In this document: positions 3,992 through 39,407 of the stretch, in pieces
Layout: every line of letters starts with the position of its first letter
How positions within the stretch are numbered: the stretch's first letter is position 1
Origin: an uncultured Bacteroidales bacterium
GTDB lineage: Bacteria > Bacteroidota > Bacteroidia > Bacteroidales > UBA4417
Direction: 5' to 3'
DNA: 42,897 bases
Assembly: GCA_903878265.1 (NCBI GenBank)
Contig: CAIRHD010000074.1
Span: 1 to 42,897 of the forward strand
Notes under the pieces: model-generated
Seen by the model: the letters and a program-made list of their open reading frames with translations, nothing else
Database searches by the model: none
What the model was told of the DNA's origin: nothing
Position numbers and translations under genes: made by a program

Positions 3992-6900
3992 ATGAGTAAA
4001 CTGTACTTCTTCTTGGTTATGTTACTGCTCAACAGCAGTTTCTTGTTTTCGCAGGTAGCCATCAACGCCGATGGCAGTGCCCCGCACACTTCGGCAATGC
4101 TCGATGTCAAGTCAACTAACAAAGGCTTTTTGCCTCCCCGCATGACGCAGGCCGAAATGTTTGCTATCTCAAGTGCTGCTAATGGACTGGTGGTATATTG
4201 CACCGATTGTGGCACAGAAAGGACAGGGGCTTTATCCATTTCTATCATGGGGACATGGTATTGGTTCACCACCAATTGCCTTCCTCCTGTTGCGCCCACT
4301 ACCGGGACGCATGTACCATCCGTCACACAGATAGTCTGGAACTGGAATGCTGCGGCAACAGCAACAGGCTACAAATGGAATACAACCAACAATTATGCTA
4401 CTGCAACCGATTTAGGGAATGCGACCACTATCACCCAGACTGGCCTAACATGCAACACAGCTTACAGCATATATGTGTGGGCTTACAGCAGTTGTGGTTA
4501 TTCGGTGGCAACAACATTAACACAAAACACCTCGCAGAACCCGCCTGCCCAGTCAACCGCAGGTACACATACTTCCACTGTTACTTCAATTGTGTGGAAC
4601 TGGGGTACAGTGGCGGGAGCAACAGGTTATAAATGGAACACTGTGGAAAACTACGCCACGGCAACCGAAATGAATACTGTAACCACTAAATCAGAAACAG
4701 GCCTGACCTGTAACACAACCTATGCAAGATATGTGTGGGCATATAATTCATGCGGCGTCTCGGCTTCCCGACTGCTGTCGAAAACTACTGATATGATTGC
4801 TACTACGGCACCTGCTGCTTTAACGAATACAGCTTCCCAGAACGAGATAGTATGGAATTGGGGTAGTGTAAGCGGTGTGAGCGGGTACAAATGGGGCACA
4901 ACAAACAATTATTTGAATGCCACCGATATGGGAAGCAACACTACATTTACTGAAACTGGCCTTTATTGCAACAACAACTATACAAGGTACGTTTGGTCTT
5001 ATGGCTCTTGTGGTAATTCTACGGCAGTACCGTTGACGCAAAGCACAATAACCAATCCACCTTCTACACCGACTGCAGGCGTTGCCACTGCCACATCAAC
5101 AACCGTCAACTGGGTATGGCACAAGGTGCAGGGAAGTAATTTAGAAACTGTTGGATATAAAATTAGTTCCACAAACAATTTTGCAACGGCTATAGACCTG
5201 GGTTATGATACTACATTTATTGAGCCTTTATTGTCCTGCAATACTCTTTATACCAGATATGTTTGGGCATATACTGCTTGTGGGTATTCTGCTACGGTAA
5301 CCTTGCAAAAGAGTACAAGTTCAGTTACACCTGTGGCTCCTATAGCAGCTACAAATTATGGCTATCTGAATTCCATTGCCTGGAACTGGAGTGTAGTGCC
5401 AAACGTAACTGGATATAAATGGAACACCACAAACAATTATGCCACAGCTATTGATATACAGCCCAATACAAACAATACCTATACCCAAACAGGTTTGATT
5501 TGTAATGTGTCATATACCTGCTATGTATGGTCGTACACCCTTTGTGGAAACTCAACGCCTTTGTTGCTCACATGCAGCACCGCCCAAAGTCCACCACCGA
5601 TACCCACGGCTGGAACGCAAACGCCATCAGCAACGCAGATAATATGGAACTGGACTGCTTCAACAGGAGCTACCGGTTATAAATGGAATACCACGAATAA
5701 CTATGCTACGGCTACTGATATTGGCAATGTCATTACAAAAACTGAGACCGGGCTGACCTGCAATACATCATACACACACTATATTTGGGCTTATGGGGCC
5801 TGTGGATATCAGGCAACACCACTTACTTTGATACAATCAACCACCACTAATCCTCCTGTAGCACCCACAGCCGCCACACAAACACCAACCGCCACTCAAA
5901 TCACTTGGGGATGGAATATCGTGAGTGGAGCAGTAGGATATAAATGGGGCACAACCAATGTATATGCCAATGCAACAGATTTGGGCTCAGCCACTACAAA
6001 GACTGAGACAGGTTTAACATGCAGCACTTCTTATACAAGGTATATTTGGGCTTATTCCTCATGCGGTTCATCAGCCATACCTTTGAGTATCACCCAAAGC
6101 ACCAATACAAACCCACCTCCAACCCCTGTAGCCGGTACCCACGCAGCAACAACAAGTCAGATAACATGGAAATGGAACAAAGTTTCGGATGCCACAGGTT
6201 ATAAATGGGGAATCACCAATGACTATGCAAGTGCTACCGATATGACCACTGATACGGCAAAAGTAGAAACTCCACTCAACTGTATGCAAGCTTATACAAG
6301 ATACGCATGGGCATACAACTCTTGTGGAAATTCTTCACCTGTAACCCTAACACAAAGCACAACAGCAGCCGCGTTTGCCACTCCTGCCCCTGATGCTTGT
6401 TACGGAAATGTCACTACCGTGGGATGGCATTGGTTTGCGGTTACGAATGCGACAGGGTATAAAATCAGTGCAACAAATGATATATCTCTGGCTACCGATG
6501 TGGGAATATATACACAGTATCTTGAAGGGAACCTTACCTGTAATACCTCATATACAAGGTATGTATGGGCTATCACCTATTGTGGCTTTTCAACCACTCC
6601 ACTTGTCCTCTCTGCCAGCACAAGCGCGGTTGCGCCAGCTTCTCCAACGGCAGGAACACATGTGGCTACTGCCAGTCAGGTCACCTGGAATTGGAATTCA
6701 GTTTCAGGGGCTACAGGCTATAAATGGAATTCCACGAATGATTATGCCTCCGCTACCGATATGGGCAGCGCAACCACAAATACCCAGACTGGATTAACCT
6801 GCAATAACTCGTATAACAGTTATGTATGGGCTTACAGCGCTTGTGGCACATCTGTTGTGCTTACGTTAAACGCAAGCACAACAGCAACAAGCATCTCTAC

Positions 6901-7756
6901 CCCAACAGCAGGGACACAGACCTTTGGTTCAAACAATATTACATGGGCATGGAACACGGTCATTGGAGCTACTGGATACAAATGGAACACATCCGACAAC
7001 TTTGCAACTGCTACCGATATGGGTACTGCTACAACCAAAGCAGAATCTGGATTAACCTGCAACAATTCCTATATACGCTATGTATGGGCATATTGTGCTT
7101 GTGGTACTTCCTCCTCCTTATCTATCACCCAAGCTACTACTGCCTGCTTCAGTTGTGGTTCATCTTTATCAATCAACCATGTTGCTTCAGGCGGTGTTGC
7201 CCCTGTAAACAAGAGCGTAACTTATGGCACTGTTACCAATATACCGGGTGAAACTACTAAATGCTGGATTACCAGCAATCTCGGTGCCGACCATCAGGCA
7301 ACAGCAGTGGATGATGCAACCGAACCTTCAGCAGGATGGTATTGGCAATTTAACCGTGTTCAGGGATACAAGCATGATGGTACAACGCTAACGCCAAGTG
7401 CTTCATGGCTTACAGATATAGGTGAAAGCTCTGAATGGCTTCTCGCTAATGACCCTTGTAACAAAGAACTTGGAGGCACATGGCGCTTGCCCACAGCAAC
7501 GGAATGGACCAATGTGGATGCTTCAGGTTGGACCAACTGGAACGGACCATGGAATTCAGCCTTGAAACTACATGGTGCAGGATTAGTTGTTCAAAGTACC
7601 AGCCTGGCCTACAGAGGCTCTCGCGGCTATTATCAAAGCAGTAATCAAGTATCATACAATATAAGTTACAATCTGCAATTCACCAATAGCACGAGTATAG
7701 TTAATAGTGGGATTTATAAGTACCAGGGACAATCAGTTCGTTGTATAAAAGACTGA
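3992..7756 (+). CDS. Giant secreted repeat protein: N-terminal signal peptide and VAINADGS..MLDVKST.KGFLPPRMT segment, 11 tandem Cys-paired FnIII-like modules, C-terminal FISUMP (Fibrobacter succinogenes major paralogous) domain
   Basis: 1254 aa; repeating unit ~85 aa of pattern TAGTxxxxxxQIxWNWNxVxGATGYKWNTTNNYATATDMGxxTTKTETGLTCNTSYTRYVWAYxxCGxSxxxxLTQST; C-terminus KCWITSNLGADHQATAV...GTWRLPTATEW...SVRCIKD. Confidence 0.9.
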   Translation: MSKLYFFLVMLLLNSSFLFSQVAINADGSAPHTSAMLDVKSTNKGFLPPRMTQAEMFAISSAANGLVVYCTDCGTERTGALSISIMGTWYWFTTNCLPPVAPTTGTHVPSVTQIVWNWNAAATATGYKWNTTNNYATATDLGNATTITQTGLTCNTAYSIYVWAYSSCGYSVATTLTQNTSQNPPAQSTAGTHTSTVTSIVWNWGTVAGATGYKWNTVENYATATEMNTVTTKSETGLTCNTTYARYVWAYNSCGVSASRLLSKTTDMIATTAPAALTNTASQNEIVWNWGSVSGVSGYKWGTTNNYLNATDMGSNTTFTETGLYCNNNYTRYVWSYGSCGNSTAVPLTQSTITNPPSTPTAGVATATSTTVNWVWHKVQGSNLETVGYKISSTNNFATAIDLGYDTTFIEPLLSCNTLYTRYVWAYTACGYSATVTLQKSTSSVTPVAPIAATNYGYLNSIAWNWSVVPNVTGYKWNTTNNYATAIDIQPNTNNTYTQTGLICNVSYTCYVWSYTLCGNSTPLLLTCSTAQSPPPIPTAGTQTPSATQIIWNWTASTGATGYKWNTTNNYATATDIGNVITKTETGLTCNTSYTHYIWAYGACGYQATPLTLIQSTTTNPPVAPTAATQTPTATQITWGWNIVSGAVGYKWGTTNVYANATDLGSATTKTETGLTCSTSYTRYIWAYSSCGSSAIPLSITQSTNTNPPPTPVAGTHAATTSQITWKWNKVSDATGYKWGITNDYASATDMTTDTAKVETPLNCMQAYTRYAWAYNSCGNSSPVTLTQSTTAAAFATPAPDACYGNVTTVGWHWFAVTNATGYKISATNDISLATDVGIYTQYLEGNLTCNTSYTRYVWAITYCGFSTTPLVLSASTSAVAPASPTAGTHVATASQVTWNWNSVSGATGYKWNSTNDYASATDMGSATTNTQTGLTCNNSYNSYVWAYSACGTSVVLTLNASTTATSISTPTAGTQTFGSNNITWAWNTVIGATGYKWNTSDNFATATDMGTATTKAESGLTCNNSYIRYVWAYCACGTSSSLSITQATTACFSCGSSLSINHVASGGVAPVNKSVTYGTVTNIPGETTKCWITSNLGADHQATAVDDATEPSAGWYWQFNRVQGYKHDGTTLTPSASWLTDIGESSEWLLANDPCNKELGGTWRLPTATEWTNVDASGWTNWNGPWNSALKLHGAGLVVQSTSLAYRGSRGYYQSSNQVSYNISYNLQFTNSTSIVNSGIYKYQGQSVRCIKD
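4298..7150 (+). repeat. 11 tandem protein-coding modules (~255-270 bp each)
   Basis: Manual alignment of the translation; each module has W-x-W, GYK(W/I), and two Cys in L.C.xxY....Y..CG. Confidence 0.88.
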
Positions 7757-9616: not shown

Positions 9617-12568
9617 ATGAAACAAATATATTTATTCATCCTGTTTTTCCTGATTGGTTACGCATTGATGGCCCAGGTATCTATCTGTACCGATGGCAGT
9701 GCTGCCGACAATTCCACTTTGCTTGAAGTGAAATCTAAGGCAAAGGGGTTTCTGCCTCCTCGCATGACCCGTGCCGAGCTGAACACCATCAGCCTCCCGG
9801 TTGATGGACTGGTAGCATTCTGTACCGACTGTAATTCAAATGGAACAGGAGCATTGGTAGTATATAAAGGCGGAACCTGGCTATTACTCAGCCCTAACTG
9901 TGTTACTCCTTTTGCACCTGTAGCCGCTACGCACACTCCATCACCCACACAAATAGTCTGGAATTGGAACGCGGTGACAGGAGCGGCAGGTTACAAATGG
10001 AATACTGTGAATGACTATGCCTCAGCAACCGAAATGGGTACTACCACTTCCATGACACAAACTGGGTTTAATTGCAACACTGCATATACAAGTTTTGTAT
10101 GGGCTTACACTGCCTGTGGCAATTCAACAGTTGATACGCTAAGGCAAACCACATCCATGTCGCCTACTGCATCTCCCGTAGCGACTACACACGCGCCTTC
10201 GGTAAACCAGATAATATGGAACTGGAATACAGTGAGCAATGCCAGTGGGTACAAATGGAACGCTTCGAACAACTATGCAACAGCAACTGATTTGGGCAAT
10301 AGTCTTTCCAAGACCGAAACTGGACTGGCCTGCAACACTTCTTATACCCGATACGTCTGGGCATATTCATCCTGCGGTGTATCTTCTCCCGTTACCATTA
10401 CACAAACTACGGTGTCCAATCCTACCACTCCCACGGCAAGTACTTCAACACCTTCACCTACTCAAATAATATGGAATTGGAATGCCGTGAGTGGAGCATC
10501 GGGGTATAAATGGAGCACTACCAATAATTATGGAACAGCAACCGATCTGGGGCTTGTAATTTCGAAGACCGAAACAGGACTAACATGCAACACTTCTTAC
10601 ACAAGATACCTATGGGCTTATACTGCTTGTGGCAGCTCAAGCGCACTAACGCTTATCCAGACAACATCACTTAACCCACCCCAAACCCCATCATCTGGTA
10701 CACATACGTTAGCAACAACGCAGATAATTTGGAACTGGAATTCGTCTATCGGTGCCACAGGGTATAAATGGAGCGACCTCAATAATTTTGCATCTGCAAC
10801 TGATATGGGTGCTGCAACCACAAAAACAGAAATAGGTTTAAGCTGCAATACTCCATATACGCGTTTTGTTTGGGCTTATAATTCCTGTGGGAATTCAACT
10901 TCGGTAACTCTTACTTCCTCCACTACATTTACGCCTGCACCTTCAACACCCACTTCTGCAACTCCTGCAACAACAATAACACAAATTGTATGGAACTGGA
11001 ATGCAGCCAGCGGTGCTACCGGCTATAAATGGAACACCACCAACAACCTGGGAACGGCTATTGAAATGGGAACATCATTAACAAAAACCGAAACAGGCCT
11101 AACTTGCAATTCGAATTATAACCGCTATGTATGGGCATATAATGAATGCGGATATTCAACCTCGGCAGCCCTTCTGGCAAGTACCAACCAAGACCCTCCG
11201 GCAACACCTTCCGCAGGTACGCATGTACCTTCGCCTACTAAAATTGTCTGGAACTGGAATACTGTTGTAAATGCAGCAGGTTACAAATGGAATACAACCA
11301 ATTCACTGGCAAGTGCCATTGATATGGGAACAGCCACCGCAAGAACAGACAGCAACTTAGTGTGTAATACCAGTTACAACAGTTATGTGTGGGCTTACAA
11401 CAATTGTGGCATATCAACACCTGTCGCACTTTCTCAAACTACTTCAATGCACCCGCCAGATTCACCATTACCTGCTACTAACATATCCACAACCAATCAG
11501 ATAACTTGGAACTGGAATGTTATTCCAGGAGTTACAGGTTACAAATGGAATTCAGTTGATGATTACGCAACAGCAACCAATATGGGCATCTCCACATCTT
11601 ATACCCAGACAGGGTTAAACTGTTATTCAAATTATTACAGTCATGTATGGGCTTATAACTCTTGCGGCGTGTCAATTTCCAGAACACTCAACTTTAGTAC
11701 AACAGCCAGCCCGCCAGCCCCGGTTGCAGGAACTCATATTGCTTCAACCAATCAGATTATTTGGAACTGGAGTGCCGTGCCTGAAGCAACAGCTTACAAA
11801 TGGAATACGGTCAACAACTTTGCTACTGCTACCAATATTGGAACTGCCACCAGCAAAACGGAAACAGGTTTGAACTGCACCACTCCTTATAACCGTTATG
11901 TTTGGGCAATCAACAATTGCGGAAATTCTTCCGTGGTTACTTTGAACCAGTCAACTGTTTCCTGTTGGGTTTGTGGCGATCCTATGACACTCACTCACAC
12001 AGTAGGTGATGTGGCACCAGTTACAAAGACTACTACTTATGGCACCGTGTCATCCACTACTATTTATGGAACCAAATGTTGGATAACAAGCAATCTGGGA
12101 TCGGATCATCAGGCAACTGCCGTTAATGATGCTACCGAACCTTCAGCAGGGTGGTACTGGCAGTTCGACCATAAACAGGGGTATAAACATGATGGCGTAA
12201 ACAGGACGCCAAATACCACATGGACTACCTGGTACACCGATAATAATGATTGGACTATGGCCAACGATCCTTGCACAATATTGCTTGGCAGCACTTGGCG
12301 CATGCCAACGAATGAAGAGTGGCAGTCGCTGGATAACTATTGGAGCAATTGGAACGACACCTGGAATTCTTCTCTTAAACTTCATGCTGCGGGGTACATT
12401 TCTTATGATGCCGCCACTCTTACCTCAACAGGTTTTCAGGGCTTTTATTGGTCAAGTACTGCCTCAACCAATAACCAAAGTTCCTATTTGTTCTTTAATT
12501 CGAATACCAGCAATATAAACACAATTCCTCGTTCAACAGGCATCCCTGTCCGATGTATTAAAGACTGA
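9617..12568 (+). CDS. Secreted repeat protein paralogous to 3992-7756: 8 tandem Cys-paired FnIII-like modules plus FISUMP domain
   Basis: 983 aa; signal peptide MKQIYLFILFFLIGYALMAQ; VSICTDGSAADNSTLLEVKSKAKGFLPPRMTRAEL; 8 modules; C-terminus KCWITSNLGSDHQATAV...STWRMPTNEEW...PVRCIKD. Confidence 0.9.
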   Translation: MKQIYLFILFFLIGYALMAQVSICTDGSAADNSTLLEVKSKAKGFLPPRMTRAELNTISLPVDGLVAFCTDCNSNGTGALVVYKGGTWLLLSPNCVTPFAPVAATHTPSPTQIVWNWNAVTGAAGYKWNTVNDYASATEMGTTTSMTQTGFNCNTAYTSFVWAYTACGNSTVDTLRQTTSMSPTASPVATTHAPSVNQIIWNWNTVSNASGYKWNASNNYATATDLGNSLSKTETGLACNTSYTRYVWAYSSCGVSSPVTITQTTVSNPTTPTASTSTPSPTQIIWNWNAVSGASGYKWSTTNNYGTATDLGLVISKTETGLTCNTSYTRYLWAYTACGSSSALTLIQTTSLNPPQTPSSGTHTLATTQIIWNWNSSIGATGYKWSDLNNFASATDMGAATTKTEIGLSCNTPYTRFVWAYNSCGNSTSVTLTSSTTFTPAPSTPTSATPATTITQIVWNWNAASGATGYKWNTTNNLGTAIEMGTSLTKTETGLTCNSNYNRYVWAYNECGYSTSAALLASTNQDPPATPSAGTHVPSPTKIVWNWNTVVNAAGYKWNTTNSLASAIDMGTATARTDSNLVCNTSYNSYVWAYNNCGISTPVALSQTTSMHPPDSPLPATNISTTNQITWNWNVIPGVTGYKWNSVDDYATATNMGISTSYTQTGLNCYSNYYSHVWAYNSCGVSISRTLNFSTTASPPAPVAGTHIASTNQIIWNWSAVPEATAYKWNTVNNFATATNIGTATSKTETGLNCTTPYNRYVWAINNCGNSSVVTLNQSTVSCWVCGDPMTLTHTVGDVAPVTKTTTYGTVSSTTIYGTKCWITSNLGSDHQATAVNDATEPSAGWYWQFDHKQGYKHDGVNRTPNTTWTTWYTDNNDWTMANDPCTILLGSTWRMPTNEEWQSLDNYWSNWNDTWNSSLKLHAAGYISYDAATLTSTGFQGFYWSSTASTNNQSSYLFFNSNTSNINTIPRSTGIPVRCIKD
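9919..11960 (+). repeat. 8 tandem protein-coding modules (~255-260 bp each) homologous to those at 4298-7150
   Basis: Manual alignment of translation. Confidence 0.88.
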
Positions 12569-35439: not shown

Positions 35440-35634
35440 TTATATCTTGAACTTCATCCCACAACAAACACTTTTTTGGAGCAATTCTTCTGGAAGGTGC
35501 GCTTCCGACACGTTTGAATAACAATCGTACAAAAACAATGCAAGCCCTTGTAAAACAGGTAAATCGTCAATCAAATTGGGAAAATTGAAATTCTGTTTGG
35601 TGTCCCAAAATCTTGTGAGAAAATCGGAATTCAT
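35440..35634 (-). CDS. Small hypothetical ORF overlapping the GH3 stop codon (TGATG)
   Basis: ATG at 35634 overlaps TGA of the GH3 gene; MNSDFLTRFWDTKQNFNFPNLIDDLPVLQGLALFLYDCYSNVSEAHLPEELLQKSVCCGMKFKI. Confidence 0.35.
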   Translation of the reverse strand: MNSDFLTRFWDTKQNFNFPNLIDDLPVLQGLALFLYDCYSNVSEAHLPEELLQKSVCCGMKFKI

Positions 35635-37871
35635 CAATCAACCAATTCAAAACCAGCTTTCAACCTAATATCCTCGGACGAAGCGCCAATCATCAATTCA
35701 AATTCGCCCGGCTCGGCTACCCATTCCAGATTTTGGTTATAAAACGATAATTTTTCTACGTTGATAACGAAACTGATCATTTTTGATTCGCCAGCTTTTA
35801 AATGTATTTTTTTGAAGTCTTTGAGTTCCTTAACAGGCCTGATTATCGAACCTACTTTATCCCTTAAATATAGCTGAACAATTTCCTCCCCATCGTATTT
35901 GCCTGTATTAGAAATTGTTACCGACACTTGTAACTGATCTTTTTTGCTCATTTTGGTTGAACCGATCTTTAAATCGCTGTATGCAAAAGTGGTGTAGCTT
36001 AATCCATATCCAAAAGCATATTTTGGGAAAATGGATTCATCGATATAGGATGATTTGTTAAAGTGGTTATCATCGTTTTTTGCAGGGCGGCCTGTGTTGA
36101 AATGGTTGTAATACATCGGTATTTGCCCGACCGAGCGTGGGAAAGTAATCGGCAGTTTTGCCGAAGGGTTATAATCTCCGAAAAGCACATTGGCTATGGC
36201 ATTACCGGCTTCGCTGCCCAGCCACCATGTGTATAAAATTGCTGGCGCATTATCGGCAGTATAATTAAACACTAACGGACGACCAGCATTTATCAGCACT
36301 ACCACAGGTTTTCCGGTTGCAAGAAGTTCTTTTAACAAATCTTCCTGAACCCCTGGAATATTGATATTGCTTCGGCTTTTGGCTTCACCGCTTAAATCCC
36401 TACGTTCGCCAATGCTAAGGATAACAACATCCGCCTGTTTTGCGATATTTACGGCTTCGGCAAAACCAGCCCTGTTGCTGCCTTCAATTTCGCAACCTTT
36501 GGCATAGAGAAGTTTGGCCGTAGAACCAATTTTATTCTCTATTCCTTCCCATTGCGAAACAATAAAGTTAGAGTCCACACCAGGAACTTCCACATCCCAA
36601 AACCCCTTGTTCTGCTTCACAGCTTTCACCAACGGGCCAATAAATGCAATAGTTTTCGTTGTTTTGGATAACGGCAACAAATGGTTTTCGTTTTTCAATA
36701 AAACTATGCTTTTTGAAGCTACTTCCCTTGCAATTTTTGTGTGTTCGGGGTTGTTCAATGCTTTTTGCTGCCTGTCGGGATTGCAAAACCGGTACGGGTC
36801 ATCGAACAAACCTAGTTCAAATTTCTTTAACAAAATCCGCATAACGGCATCATCAATTAGCGCGACCTGCACTTTATTGTCGGCTACAAGTTTAGCAAGG
36901 TTGTTTTTGTAACAGCGGCTTTCCATATCCATATCGCTTCCAGCGGTAATGGCGGAAAGTGCTGCTTCGTAACCATCTTTAACATTTCCATGGTTTATCA
37001 TTTCGCCGATTGATCCCCAATCACTGACGACAAAACCTGTAAAGCCCCATTTGCCTTTTAAAATCTCCCTTTGTAAATATTTATTTCCGGTAGCGGGAAC
37101 TCCATTTATATCGTTGAATGAATTCATAAAAGTGGCTACGCCGGCATCAACAGCAGCTTTGAATGGGGGCAGATAGGTTTCCCACAACATCCGCTCACTC
37201 ATATCGACCGAATTGTAATCGCGGCCACCAATTGCAGCACCATAAGCAGCAAAATGTTTGGCACAAGCCATTACCGAATTTGTGCTGCCGAGTTTTTCGC
37301 CTTGAAACCCTTCGACCTTTGCCTTGGCTATCAAGGAACCCAGATAGGTATCTTCGCCCGCACCTTCCATTACTCGGCCCCAACGAGGATCGCGGGCAAT
37401 ATCGACCATAGGTGCAAAAGTCCAGTGTATTCCACTTGCACTTGCCTCGTTGGCAGCTACTTGTGCCGATAGTTTTATGGCTTCCAAATCCCAGCTACAG
37501 GCTTCGGCCAATGGGATAGGAAATGTGGTTTTAAACCCATGGATTACATCCTGCCCGAACAATAAAGGGATTTTCATCCGCGACTGCATGGCGATTTTCT
37601 GCCAGCTTGCAGTGCGCTCAACTCCAATGCAGTTGAGGAGCGATCCAACTTGACCATTTTTTATCTGTGTTGCTTTAGCATTGTCAACCGTTACGGGTCC
37701 GGTAGCAGACCAGTCGTCGCTGTACTGGTTCAACTGCCCGATTTTTTCTTCCAATGTCATTAATTGCAAAACCGAATCAACCCGTTGGGCAATAGGAGTT
37801 TGCTTTATCTGAGCAAAAGAAATATGGTTCGTCCAAATAAGAACCAGTAAAAAGATAAGTTTAGTTTTCAG
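35634..37871 (-). CDS. bglX: Secreted GH3 beta-glucosidase (BglX-like), probable CTG start codon
   Basis: GH3 motifs LLFGQDVIHGFKTTFPIPLAEACSWD, GFVVSDWGSI (nucleophile Asp), C-terminal FnIII-like domain; reading frame upstream of the ORF-track TTG encodes signal peptide LKTKLIFLLVLIWTNHISFAQ and begins at CTG 37871. Confidence 0.9.
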   Translation of the reverse strand: MKTKLIFLLVLIWTNHISFAQIKQTPIAQRVDSVLQLMTLEEKIGQLNQYSDDWSATGPVTVDNAKATQIKNGQVGSLLNCIGVERTASWQKIAMQSRMKIPLLFGQDVIHGFKTTFPIPLAEACSWDLEAIKLSAQVAANEASASGIHWTFAPMVDIARDPRWGRVMEGAGEDTYLGSLIAKAKVEGFQGEKLGSTNSVMACAKHFAAYGAAIGGRDYNSVDMSERMLWETYLPPFKAAVDAGVATFMNSFNDINGVPATGNKYLQREILKGKWGFTGFVVSDWGSIGEMINHGNVKDGYEAALSAITAGSDMDMESRCYKNNLAKLVADNKVQVALIDDAVMRILLKKFELGLFDDPYRFCNPDRQQKALNNPEHTKIAREVASKSIVLLKNENHLLPLSKTTKTIAFIGPLVKAVKQNKGFWDVEVPGVDSNFIVSQWEGIENKIGSTAKLLYAKGCEIEGSNRAGFAEAVNIAKQADVVILSIGERRDLSGEAKSRSNINIPGVQEDLLKELLATGKPVVVLINAGRPLVFNYTADNAPAILYTWWLGSEAGNAIANVLFGDYNPSAKLPITFPRSVGQIPMYYNHFNTGRPAKNDDNHFNKSSYIDESIFPKYAFGYGLSYTTFAYSDLKIGSTKMSKKDQLQVSVTISNTGKYDGEEIVQLYLRDKVGSIIRPVKELKDFKKIHLKAGESKMISFVINVEKLSFYNQNLEWVAEPGEFELMIGASSEDIRLKAGFELVD

Positions 37872-37883
37872 GTTGTGTTGTGT

Positions 37884-39407
37884 TTAGTTTTTAAAAATAC
37901 GCACATAATCTACTTGATAAGATACCGGGAAAACGGAATCATCAACACCATATTTACCGCCCCAGTTGCCTCCTACTGCAAGGTTCAGGATTACAAAAAA
38001 ATCTTGATCGAAGGGCCATTCGTTTGTGGTTTTATGTTCGTTTTCGATATGGTTGTATATTTTGTTGTCAAACATAAAATCAATTTTATCTGGAGTCCAT
38101 TCTATACTAAACAGATGGAACGAATTATATGGGTTTTCGATATAAACTGCTTTCCCTTTTTGGGTGCCTGTAAAATGGTTATATACTTCGGTATGGATGG
38201 TGCCAAAAATGCTATCCTTTTCGTATCCAACATGTTCCATAATGTCGATTTCGCCACATTGGGGCCAACCAGCTTTTTCGGCATTGGCACCTAACATCCA
38301 AAAAGCTGGCCAAGTTCCTTTACCAGCCGGAAGCTTTGCTCTCATTTCAAGTTTTCCATACTTAAATTTTCCCATGGTTACTATCCTTGCAGATGTATAT
38401 TGCTTATCCTCCTTTTGCTGTTTTCGCGCAATTATTTTAAGACAACCATTCCCGGCAAAGGCATTTAAAGTATCCTTCTGTGTATAATACTGCAATTCGT
38501 TGTTGCCCCAGCCGTTTCCGCCTACATCGTAAACCCATTTTGTGCTGTCGGGCAAGCCATTGTAGTTGAACTCATCGCTCCATGCCAATTTCCAGCCTCT
38601 CGAAACCGGCGAGAGTTTCGTGCGTTCCAGTAAAAGCTCTGGCTCATTGGTTGTAATAAAATCGAAACCGTTTGCAAGCAGCCAATCCATTTGTTCGGTA
38701 TCGTTTACAGTCCAGGCGTTAAGATCAAGGTTGTTGCTTTTGGCATCCGAAATCCAGACGGGATGCTCGGCATAAACCGAATAATGAAAATCTGCACCAC
38801 TAATGCCATCCGATTCAAGCTGGTCTGGCGATTTGTCGCCTTCAAGGTATTGAGTGTTTGCTTGTGGGTTCAAAGCAATCACCCTTTTCAAAATGTCGTA
38901 ATCGAAACTGATATATAAGAACATTTCTTTGGCTTTTAAATCGGCTACTACCTTCATGACTTTTTCTGCAACGATAATCCCACGCGACTTGCCAATTTCC
39001 GAAGGTTTGATTTCGCAAATTAGACGTGTGCTTGCATTGTTTGCGAGCCCTGCTTTTATATACTCGCGCAAGGTTGGCAGTTTCTCGCCGTTTGAAAGTT
39101 TGAAAGCCAGTAAATTTTGATAACTGCTTTTTTCTATTGGTAGATTGTTGTATTCCGGGTCATGGTTGATAACCAACGAATCATCTTCCGTCATGCGCAC
39201 ATCAAATTCGGAACCGGCACATTTTAATTCGATGGCATGTTTGAGCGAGGCAATAGAGTTTTGCGGGAGGTTGTTTGTTTTCCATGCCCCGCGGTGGGCA
39301 ACCACATTATTAGTTGCAAATGCGCTTTTTTGTCCGAAGGCACTTATCAAACAGTTTGACAAAATAAGGAATATGATTGCAAGAAAGCAATAAAAACGAG
39401 GGTTCAT
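37884..39407 (-). CDS. Secreted two-domain enzyme: glycerophosphodiester phosphodiesterase (GDPD) domain fused to GH16 (laminarinase/licheninase-type) domain
   Basis: GDPD: VVAHRGAWKTNNLPQNSIASLKHAIELKCAGSEFDVRMTEDDSLVINHDPEYN, LICEIKPS; GH16: WKLAWSDEFNYNG...WPAFWMLG...CGEIDIMEHVGYEKDSIFGTIHTE...QVDYVRIFKN. Confidence 0.93.
   Translation of the reverse strand: MNPRFYCFLAIIFLILSNCLISAFGQKSAFATNNVVAHRGAWKTNNLPQNSIASLKHAIELKCAGSEFDVRMTEDDSLVINHDPEYNNLPIEKSSYQNLLAFKLSNGEKLPTLREYIKAGLANNASTRLICEIKPSEIGKSRGIIVAEKVMKVVADLKAKEMFLYISFDYDILKRVIALNPQANTQYLEGDKSPDQLESDGISGADFHYSVYAEHPVWISDAKSNNLDLNAWTVNDTEQMDWLLANGFDFITTNEPELLLERTKLSPVSRGWKLAWSDEFNYNGLPDSTKWVYDVGGNGWGNNELQYYTQKDTLNAFAGNGCLKIIARKQQKEDKQYTSARIVTMGKFKYGKLEMRAKLPAGKGTWPAFWMLGANAEKAGWPQCGEIDIMEHVGYEKDSIFGTIHTEVYNHFTGTQKGKAVYIENPYNSFHLFSIEWTPDKIDFMFDNKIYNHIENEHKTTNEWPFDQDFFVILNLAVGGNWGGKYGVDDSVFPVSYQVDYVRIFKN

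Follow-up and report, generated by a model that had tools for sequence, protein, structure and literature searches.

A protein joining a GDPD domain to a GH16 domain is already known through the PDB entries 7WW4 and 7WWC, released in 2023 under the title 'multidomain beta-1,3(4)-glucanase'; according to its entry title, 7WWC carries laminaritriose. The sequence of these entries is very close to Pedobacter fusions such as those of loci L037 and L142. Our literature search found no paper describing them and no biochemical data on the GDPD half of the fusion, and searches on GDPD with GH16 and on mannosyl-6-phosphatase returned nothing relevant. Each half also has solved relatives of its own. The GH16 laminarinases 3ILN (Rhodothermus), 5WUT (Flavobacterium ULam111) and ZgLamC share the fold and the ExDxxE motif of the fused GH16, but their solved chains contain no GDPD domain. 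The Bacteroidota GDPD BDI_0402 (3NO3) has the GDPD fold, the HRG, ExD, HD and ExK motifs and, like the protein studied here, 'QNS' in place of 'ENT'; it is however a stand-alone enzyme, about 40% identical to ours. Finally, a group of Flavobacterium loci (L059, L063-L065, L135) encodes a GDPD 59-60% identical to ours together with a GH3, and also SusC and SusD. In these loci, unlike in ours, the GDPD is unfused and the backbone enzyme is a GH144 instead of a GH16.

The stretch of DNA analysed here, hereafter the window, is 42.9 kb long and contains the following features:

37884..39407, minus strand: GDPD-GH16 fusion gene, 507 aa (open reading frame, Pfam, full-length match to 7WW4/7WWC)
39330..39407, minus strand: putative N-terminal signal peptide, about residues 1-26, sequence MNPRFYCFLAIIFLILSNCLISAFGQ (hydrophobic helix 3-22 in the structural model)
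38622..39314, minus strand: GDPD domain, about residues 32-262 (PF03009; invariant residues in two alignments)
37887..38603, minus strand: GH16 domain of laminarinase type, about residues 269-507 (PF00722; best stand-alone structural match 3ILN)
35634..37871, minus strand: GH3 beta-glucosidase (BglX-like), next gene downstream (Pfam and NCBIfam; inspection of frame and start; same pair in locus L131)

The fusion gene opens with an ATG and runs in one frame with zero internal stops. Pfam detected GDPD (PF03009) at residues 38-257 (E 2e-21, 77.6 bits for a curated cut-off of 23.6) and Glyco_hydro_16 (PF00722) at residues 322-496 (E 1.2e-26, 93.7 bits for a curated cut-off of 22). The GDPD motifs are H38-R39-G40, E67-x-D69, H82-D83 and E132-x-K134, and the GH16 motif is E386-I-D388-I-M-E391 (ExDxxE). 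The usual GDPD 'PENT' reads 'PQNS', its position Q49 being Q, E or K among the relatives. The N-terminal residues resemble a signal peptide. The first-pass annotation had described one secreted polypeptide with complete GDPD and GH16 signatures; open reading frame, Pfam and catalytic residues confirm it, and that description was accurate, save that it left unstated the strand, which is the minus strand.

In the PDB, 7WW4/7WWC matched the whole protein, over residues 32-506 (598 bits with phmmer). Its single chain contains both domains, ordered and arranged as in the window fusion, at 55% identity, hence about 45% sequence divergence. An AlphaFold2 model of the window fusion, computed from its sequence and those of relatives, had a mean pLDDT of 88.7 and a pTM of 0.84 and superimposed on 7WW4 over the whole length, with TM-scores of 0.91/0.96 and an rmsd of 1.7 angstrom over 481 columns. 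The fused GH16 scored 286 bits against 3ILN. From this similarity and from 7WWC with its laminaritriose, the GH16 half is predicted to be an endo-beta-1,3(4)-glucanase of laminarinase type; sequence and structure are what suggest the enzyme classes of both halves.

The GH3 gene (NCBIfam 811 bits for a cut-off of 666) is the only glucan-enzyme companion of the fusion in the window. The frame is open from 37883, and ahead of the signal peptide there is no ATG, GTG or TTG; the probable start is a CTG at 37871, just past the stop codon of the fusion. The sister locus L131 has the same pair, with a GH3 whose ATG start overlaps the end of the fusion; unlike this sister, the window GH3 either uses a rare start codon or contains a sequence error. 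The profiles built for this analysis picked up no gene for SusC, SusD, EEP or PF04185 in the window. The SusC/SusD-beside-enzymes arrangement of a polysaccharide utilisation locus was accordingly not seen there, and is present in L129, L130, L042, L050 and others. The window genome has two GDPD matches and two GH16 matches, as well as two PF10091 (GH144-type) matches located elsewhere than the fusion locus.

The architecture itself being known, what is new is the gene neighbourhood of the GDPD relatives. A search for the domain architecture and its surroundings, of the kind proposed in the first-pass annotation, found that GDPD-GH16 fusions recur across Bacteroidota beside glucan enzymes. Other genomes of the window's genus carry full-length fusions (G010, G002 and G007, with 74%, 56% and 57% identity), and so do other families of the same class and, from an alignment-based scan of a genome collection for wider relatives, named isolates of Tamlana, Runella, Winogradskyella, Pedobacter, Gelidibacter and Polaribacter as well as a Saprospiraceae MAG.

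Fused or unfused, the close GDPD relatives occupy SusC/SusD loci with a GH16, a GH3 or a GH144 endo-beta-1,2-glucanase. Fusions of Flavobacteriaceae and Saprospiraceae follow a Y_Y_Y regulator, SusC and SusD and are followed by an EEP enzyme in 8 of 9 loci, five of which have a GH3 after the EEP; this Y_Y_Y-SusC-SusD-[GDPD-GH16]-EEP(-GH3) order was found in Tamlana, Gelidibacter, Polaribacter, Saprospiraceae and further genomes. Among the nearest solved relatives of the EEP enzyme are 3MPR and 4C1R, of which 4C1R is named mannosyl-6-phosphatase, so that the Flavobacteriaceae partner appears sugar-6-phosphatase-like. The next gene after the Pedobacter fusions, those resembling 7WW4/7WWC, encodes, in 9 of 10 cases, a PF04185 phosphoesterase whose C-terminal domains are those of phospholipase C, whereas it is the GH3 in the window. 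Within the genus of the window, L129, L132 and L133 have the order SusC, SusD, GH16, GH2, then GDPD-GH16 or a GDPD remnant, and L130 has the order of L129 without the GH2.

The unfused GDPD was found in eight Flavobacterium-type loci with SusC, SusD, GH144, mostly an alpha/beta hydrolase, GH3, GDPD, a GH43-like protein and mostly an M28 peptidase; L137 is one independent GH144 locus with an unfused close GDPD relative. The GH144 protein of the GDPD loci scored 607 bits against the Chitinophaga-type endo-beta-1,2-glucanase structures 5GZH/5GZK. Separate genes were also found in Yeosuana (L060: GDPD, GH2, GH16, GH16, EEP, sulfatase, GH3) and in the split locus L108, where the GDPD precedes a GH16 protein. 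Besides these partners, a gene of DUF4175 type, about 1100 aa long, divergently adjoins almost every Pedobacter fusion (L047, L052, L053, L056, L057, L142-L144); strikingly constant as it is, it is probably unrelated.

We compared the close relatives with other GDPDs of the same genomes, counting as partner any glycosidase of the same-strand run within five genes and leaving out the fused domain itself. A glycosidase partner was present for 22 of 33 close relatives and for 0 of 36 other GDPDs, and an EEP or PF04185 partner for 10 of 33 and 0 of 36, respectively. The corresponding Fisher p values, 3e-10 and 3e-4, overstate the certainty because the locus sets come from related genomes and are not independent, and because the sample was partly picked by sequence (L042-L071 were chosen by sequence match). 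In a neighbour-blind sample (20 genomes, GDPD identity 47% or higher), 7 GDPDs were fused to GH16, 3 lay with GH144 and 1 beside GH3; no glycosidase partner was detected in the other 9. Proximity to SusC/SusD was rejected as proof of glycan use: 11 of the 36 control GDPDs have SusC/SusD nearby, and GDPDs adjoin them without glycosidases in L159, L161, L163-L165, L169, L175, L176, L178 and L179. These glycosidase-free pairs suggest SusCD systems for phosphate esters, not glycans.

The reading that we favour, with a probability of about 0.5, is that of a two-domain, Sec-exported, beta-glucan-foraging enzyme whose GDPD half acts on phosphodiesters of the same material. After export via Sec, the GH16 half would make endo cuts in a beta-1,3-rich glucan backbone and the GDPD half, a predicted metal-dependent phosphodiesterase, would remove phosphodiester-linked groups carried by that material. 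The downstream GH3 would take the oligosaccharides to glucose and, in the relatives, a phosphomonoesterase-type partner of the gene run would take off or recover whatever phosphate stays behind on sugar or glycerol. The dual-enzyme reading of the first-pass annotation is well supported by the conservation of both active sites, the pairing of GDPD and glucan-enzyme genes and the phosphoesterases beside the fusions. From the gene context we further infer that the glucan itself bears the phosphodiester, and what group it may be, with phosphoglycerol, phosphocholine, phosphoethanolamine and sugar-P-sugar as candidates. This context supports, short of proof, a phosphodiester-decorated beta-glucan as the substrate and makes the idea, in modified form, more credible than it was from the sequence alone. 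The strongest part of it is borrowed from relatives, the window locus being devoid of the SusC, SusD, EEP and PF04185 genes.

The explanation that survives best beside it is co-secretion only: the GH16 would digest an undecorated glucan, and the GDPD would scavenge glycerol phosphate or phosphate from free glycerophosphodiesters, namely deacylated phospholipids that lysed cells of algae, fungi or bacteria contain alongside the glucan. In its favour, the GDPD active site is canonical; the PF04185 gene after the Pedobacter fusions, of phospholipase C/acid phosphatase type, fits the use of lipid head groups, and other GDPDs of these genomes adjoin SusC/SusD without glycosidases. We nevertheless consider it rather unlikely, since it leaves unexplained why this GDPD subgroup, unlike other GDPDs, accompanies two unrelated glucanase families (GH16 and GH144), and why it has a sugar-6-phosphatase-like EEP partner.

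The nature of the glucan was considered in the light of the fused GH16, which, as a predicted beta-1,3(4) enzyme, should not cut beta-1,2 bonds. Bradyrhizobium makes beta-1,3/1,6 cyclic glucans with phosphocholine, and phosphorylated eukaryotic glucans exist, such as oomycete phosphoglucans; both types are candidate substrates of the GH16 fusion. The phosphoglycerol of OPGs is expected to be of the sn-1 form. Given the strict specificity of B. subtilis GlpQ for sn-glycero-3-phosphoryl substrates (PMC7086022), the GDPD of the fusion would need a different stereochemical preference to act on such groups. The positions of the substituents in OPGs are reported as not identified (PMC11842490). In the OPGs of E. 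coli, a possible natural substrate type, the backbone is beta-1,2-linked, the branches are beta-1,6-linked, and the substituents are phosphoglycerol, phosphoethanolamine and succinyl groups (PMC3818809). The phosphoglycerol-glucan substrate put forward in the first-pass annotation is therefore retained in part: a phosphodiester-bearing glucan gains support from gene context, but the classic E. coli OPG would be a poor substrate, because its bonds are beta-1,2/1,6 and not the beta-1,3 expected for the GH16 half. A backbone enzyme for beta-1,2/1,6 glucan, as OPG degradation calls for, was found only in the GH144 relatives, the fused GH16 not being one. The E. coli-type phosphoglycerol glucan suits the GH144-GDPD loci, whose alpha/beta hydrolase may remove OPG esters. 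Loci L059, L061, L063, L064, L065, L070, L135, L136 and L137 are plausible candidates for the use of substituted bacterial beta-1,2-glucans.

A eukaryotic substrate was also considered, that is, a phosphodiester-containing beta-1,3-glucan from oomycetes, fungi or algae, or a wall protein of these organisms that is bound to glucan, in which GDPD and GH16 together would open oomycete phosphoglucans or GPI-remnant links. A laminarinase-type beta-1,3(4) GH16 suits eukaryotic glucans better than beta-1,2 bacterial ones, the EEP relative 4C1R bears the name mannosyl-6-phosphatase, and several host genera of the fusion are marine or freshwater. In one lineage at least, however, this GDPD subgroup lies in GH144 loci, which point to beta-1,2-glucans of bacteria, and we hold a eukaryotic target to be improbable.

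Returning to a GDPD acting on the decorated glucan, we also propose, tentatively and with less than even confidence, that Bacteroidota possess glucan loci specialised for phosphodiester-decorated beta-glucans, for example bacterial phosphoglycerol or phosphocholine glucans. A dedicated GDPD subgroup, fused or as an operon neighbour, would there be combined with the fitting backbone enzyme (GH16 for beta-1,3, GH144 for beta-1,2), often next to a phosphomonoesterase clearing the phosphate, and the window would be a reduced member of this group. Our literature search turned up no pathway devoted to feeding on glucans substituted with phosphoglycerol or phosphocholine. If the proposal is true, such loci would allow Bacteroidota of soil, freshwater and the sea to eat the envelope glucans of other bacteria, or phosphorylated algal or oomycete glucans, recovering carbon and phosphate from one molecule, and they would provide tool enzymes for analysing substituted glucans.

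Catalytic residues were compared in 23 fusions, the window and 22 others with 51-74% identity to it. The GDPD set (H38, R39, E67, D69, H82, E132, K134) was invariant in all of them, and the GH16 triad E386/D388/E391 was unchanged in all except one (L045, E391Q). Between pairs of fusions, pN was 0.05-0.15 and pS 0.66-0.85, so that both halves diverge far less at sites that alter the amino acid than at silent ones; silent sites being near saturation, ratios would be unreliable and we claim no dN/dS value. L132 and L133, of the genus of the window, have a truncated or lost GH16 half and an intact GDPD, with another GH16 gene nearby, which argues that the GDPD has a job of its own. The exceptional fusion of L045 (9917-11476) carries glutamine in place of the acid/base glutamate, and a separate intact GH16 is present in the same locus.

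That the GDPD half is non-catalytic and only binds or positions the substrate for the GH16 might be read from the change of 'PENT' to 'PQNS' and from the name given by the PDB depositors to the relative, which mentions only the glucanase. Against it stand the invariance of all canonical metal and catalytic residues, the integrity of the GDPD in L133 and L132, with their broken or lost GH16, and in L045, whose GH16 lacks its acid/base, and the unfused GDPD in the same kind of locus; we regard it as highly improbable. As for an assembly or frameshift artefact joining two genes, which the first-pass annotation had named as a possible refutation and the 629 contigs of the draft genome might invite, it can be dismissed with near certainty because many independent genomes, other families and isolates carry the same fusion and the crystal structure of a relative has the same architecture.

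The origin of the pairing was addressed with trees of each half. The GDPD tree interleaves fused and unfused forms, and the GDPD halves of the genus of the window lie near each other, with weak support. The GH16 tree places most fused domains in one region and those of G002 and G007, of the same genus, elsewhere; a clade uniting these two with the main fusion clade was rejected (AU p = 0.001), and placing the L045 GH16 inside that main clade gave an AU p of 0.12. A single fusion origin, with all fused GH16 domains in one clade, was also rejected (p = 3e-8); since the main clade also contains some unfused sequences, the separate tests for G002/G007 and L045 are the cleaner ones. Within the genus of the window, the GDPD is thus joined to two different GH16 lineages, and the position of G002 and G007 outside the main clade implies that the pairing arose, or the GH16 half was replaced, more than once, trees of this size leaving the order of these events unfixed. 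A shared substrate would lead to just such a pattern, in which one GDPD subgroup is paired time and again with different glucanases.

Elsewhere in the window, two large secreted proteins (3992-7756 and 9617-12568) contain many degenerate repeats of about 90 aa (WNW...GYKWNTTNNYATATD...YVWAYxxCG) and have a C-terminal domain in common.
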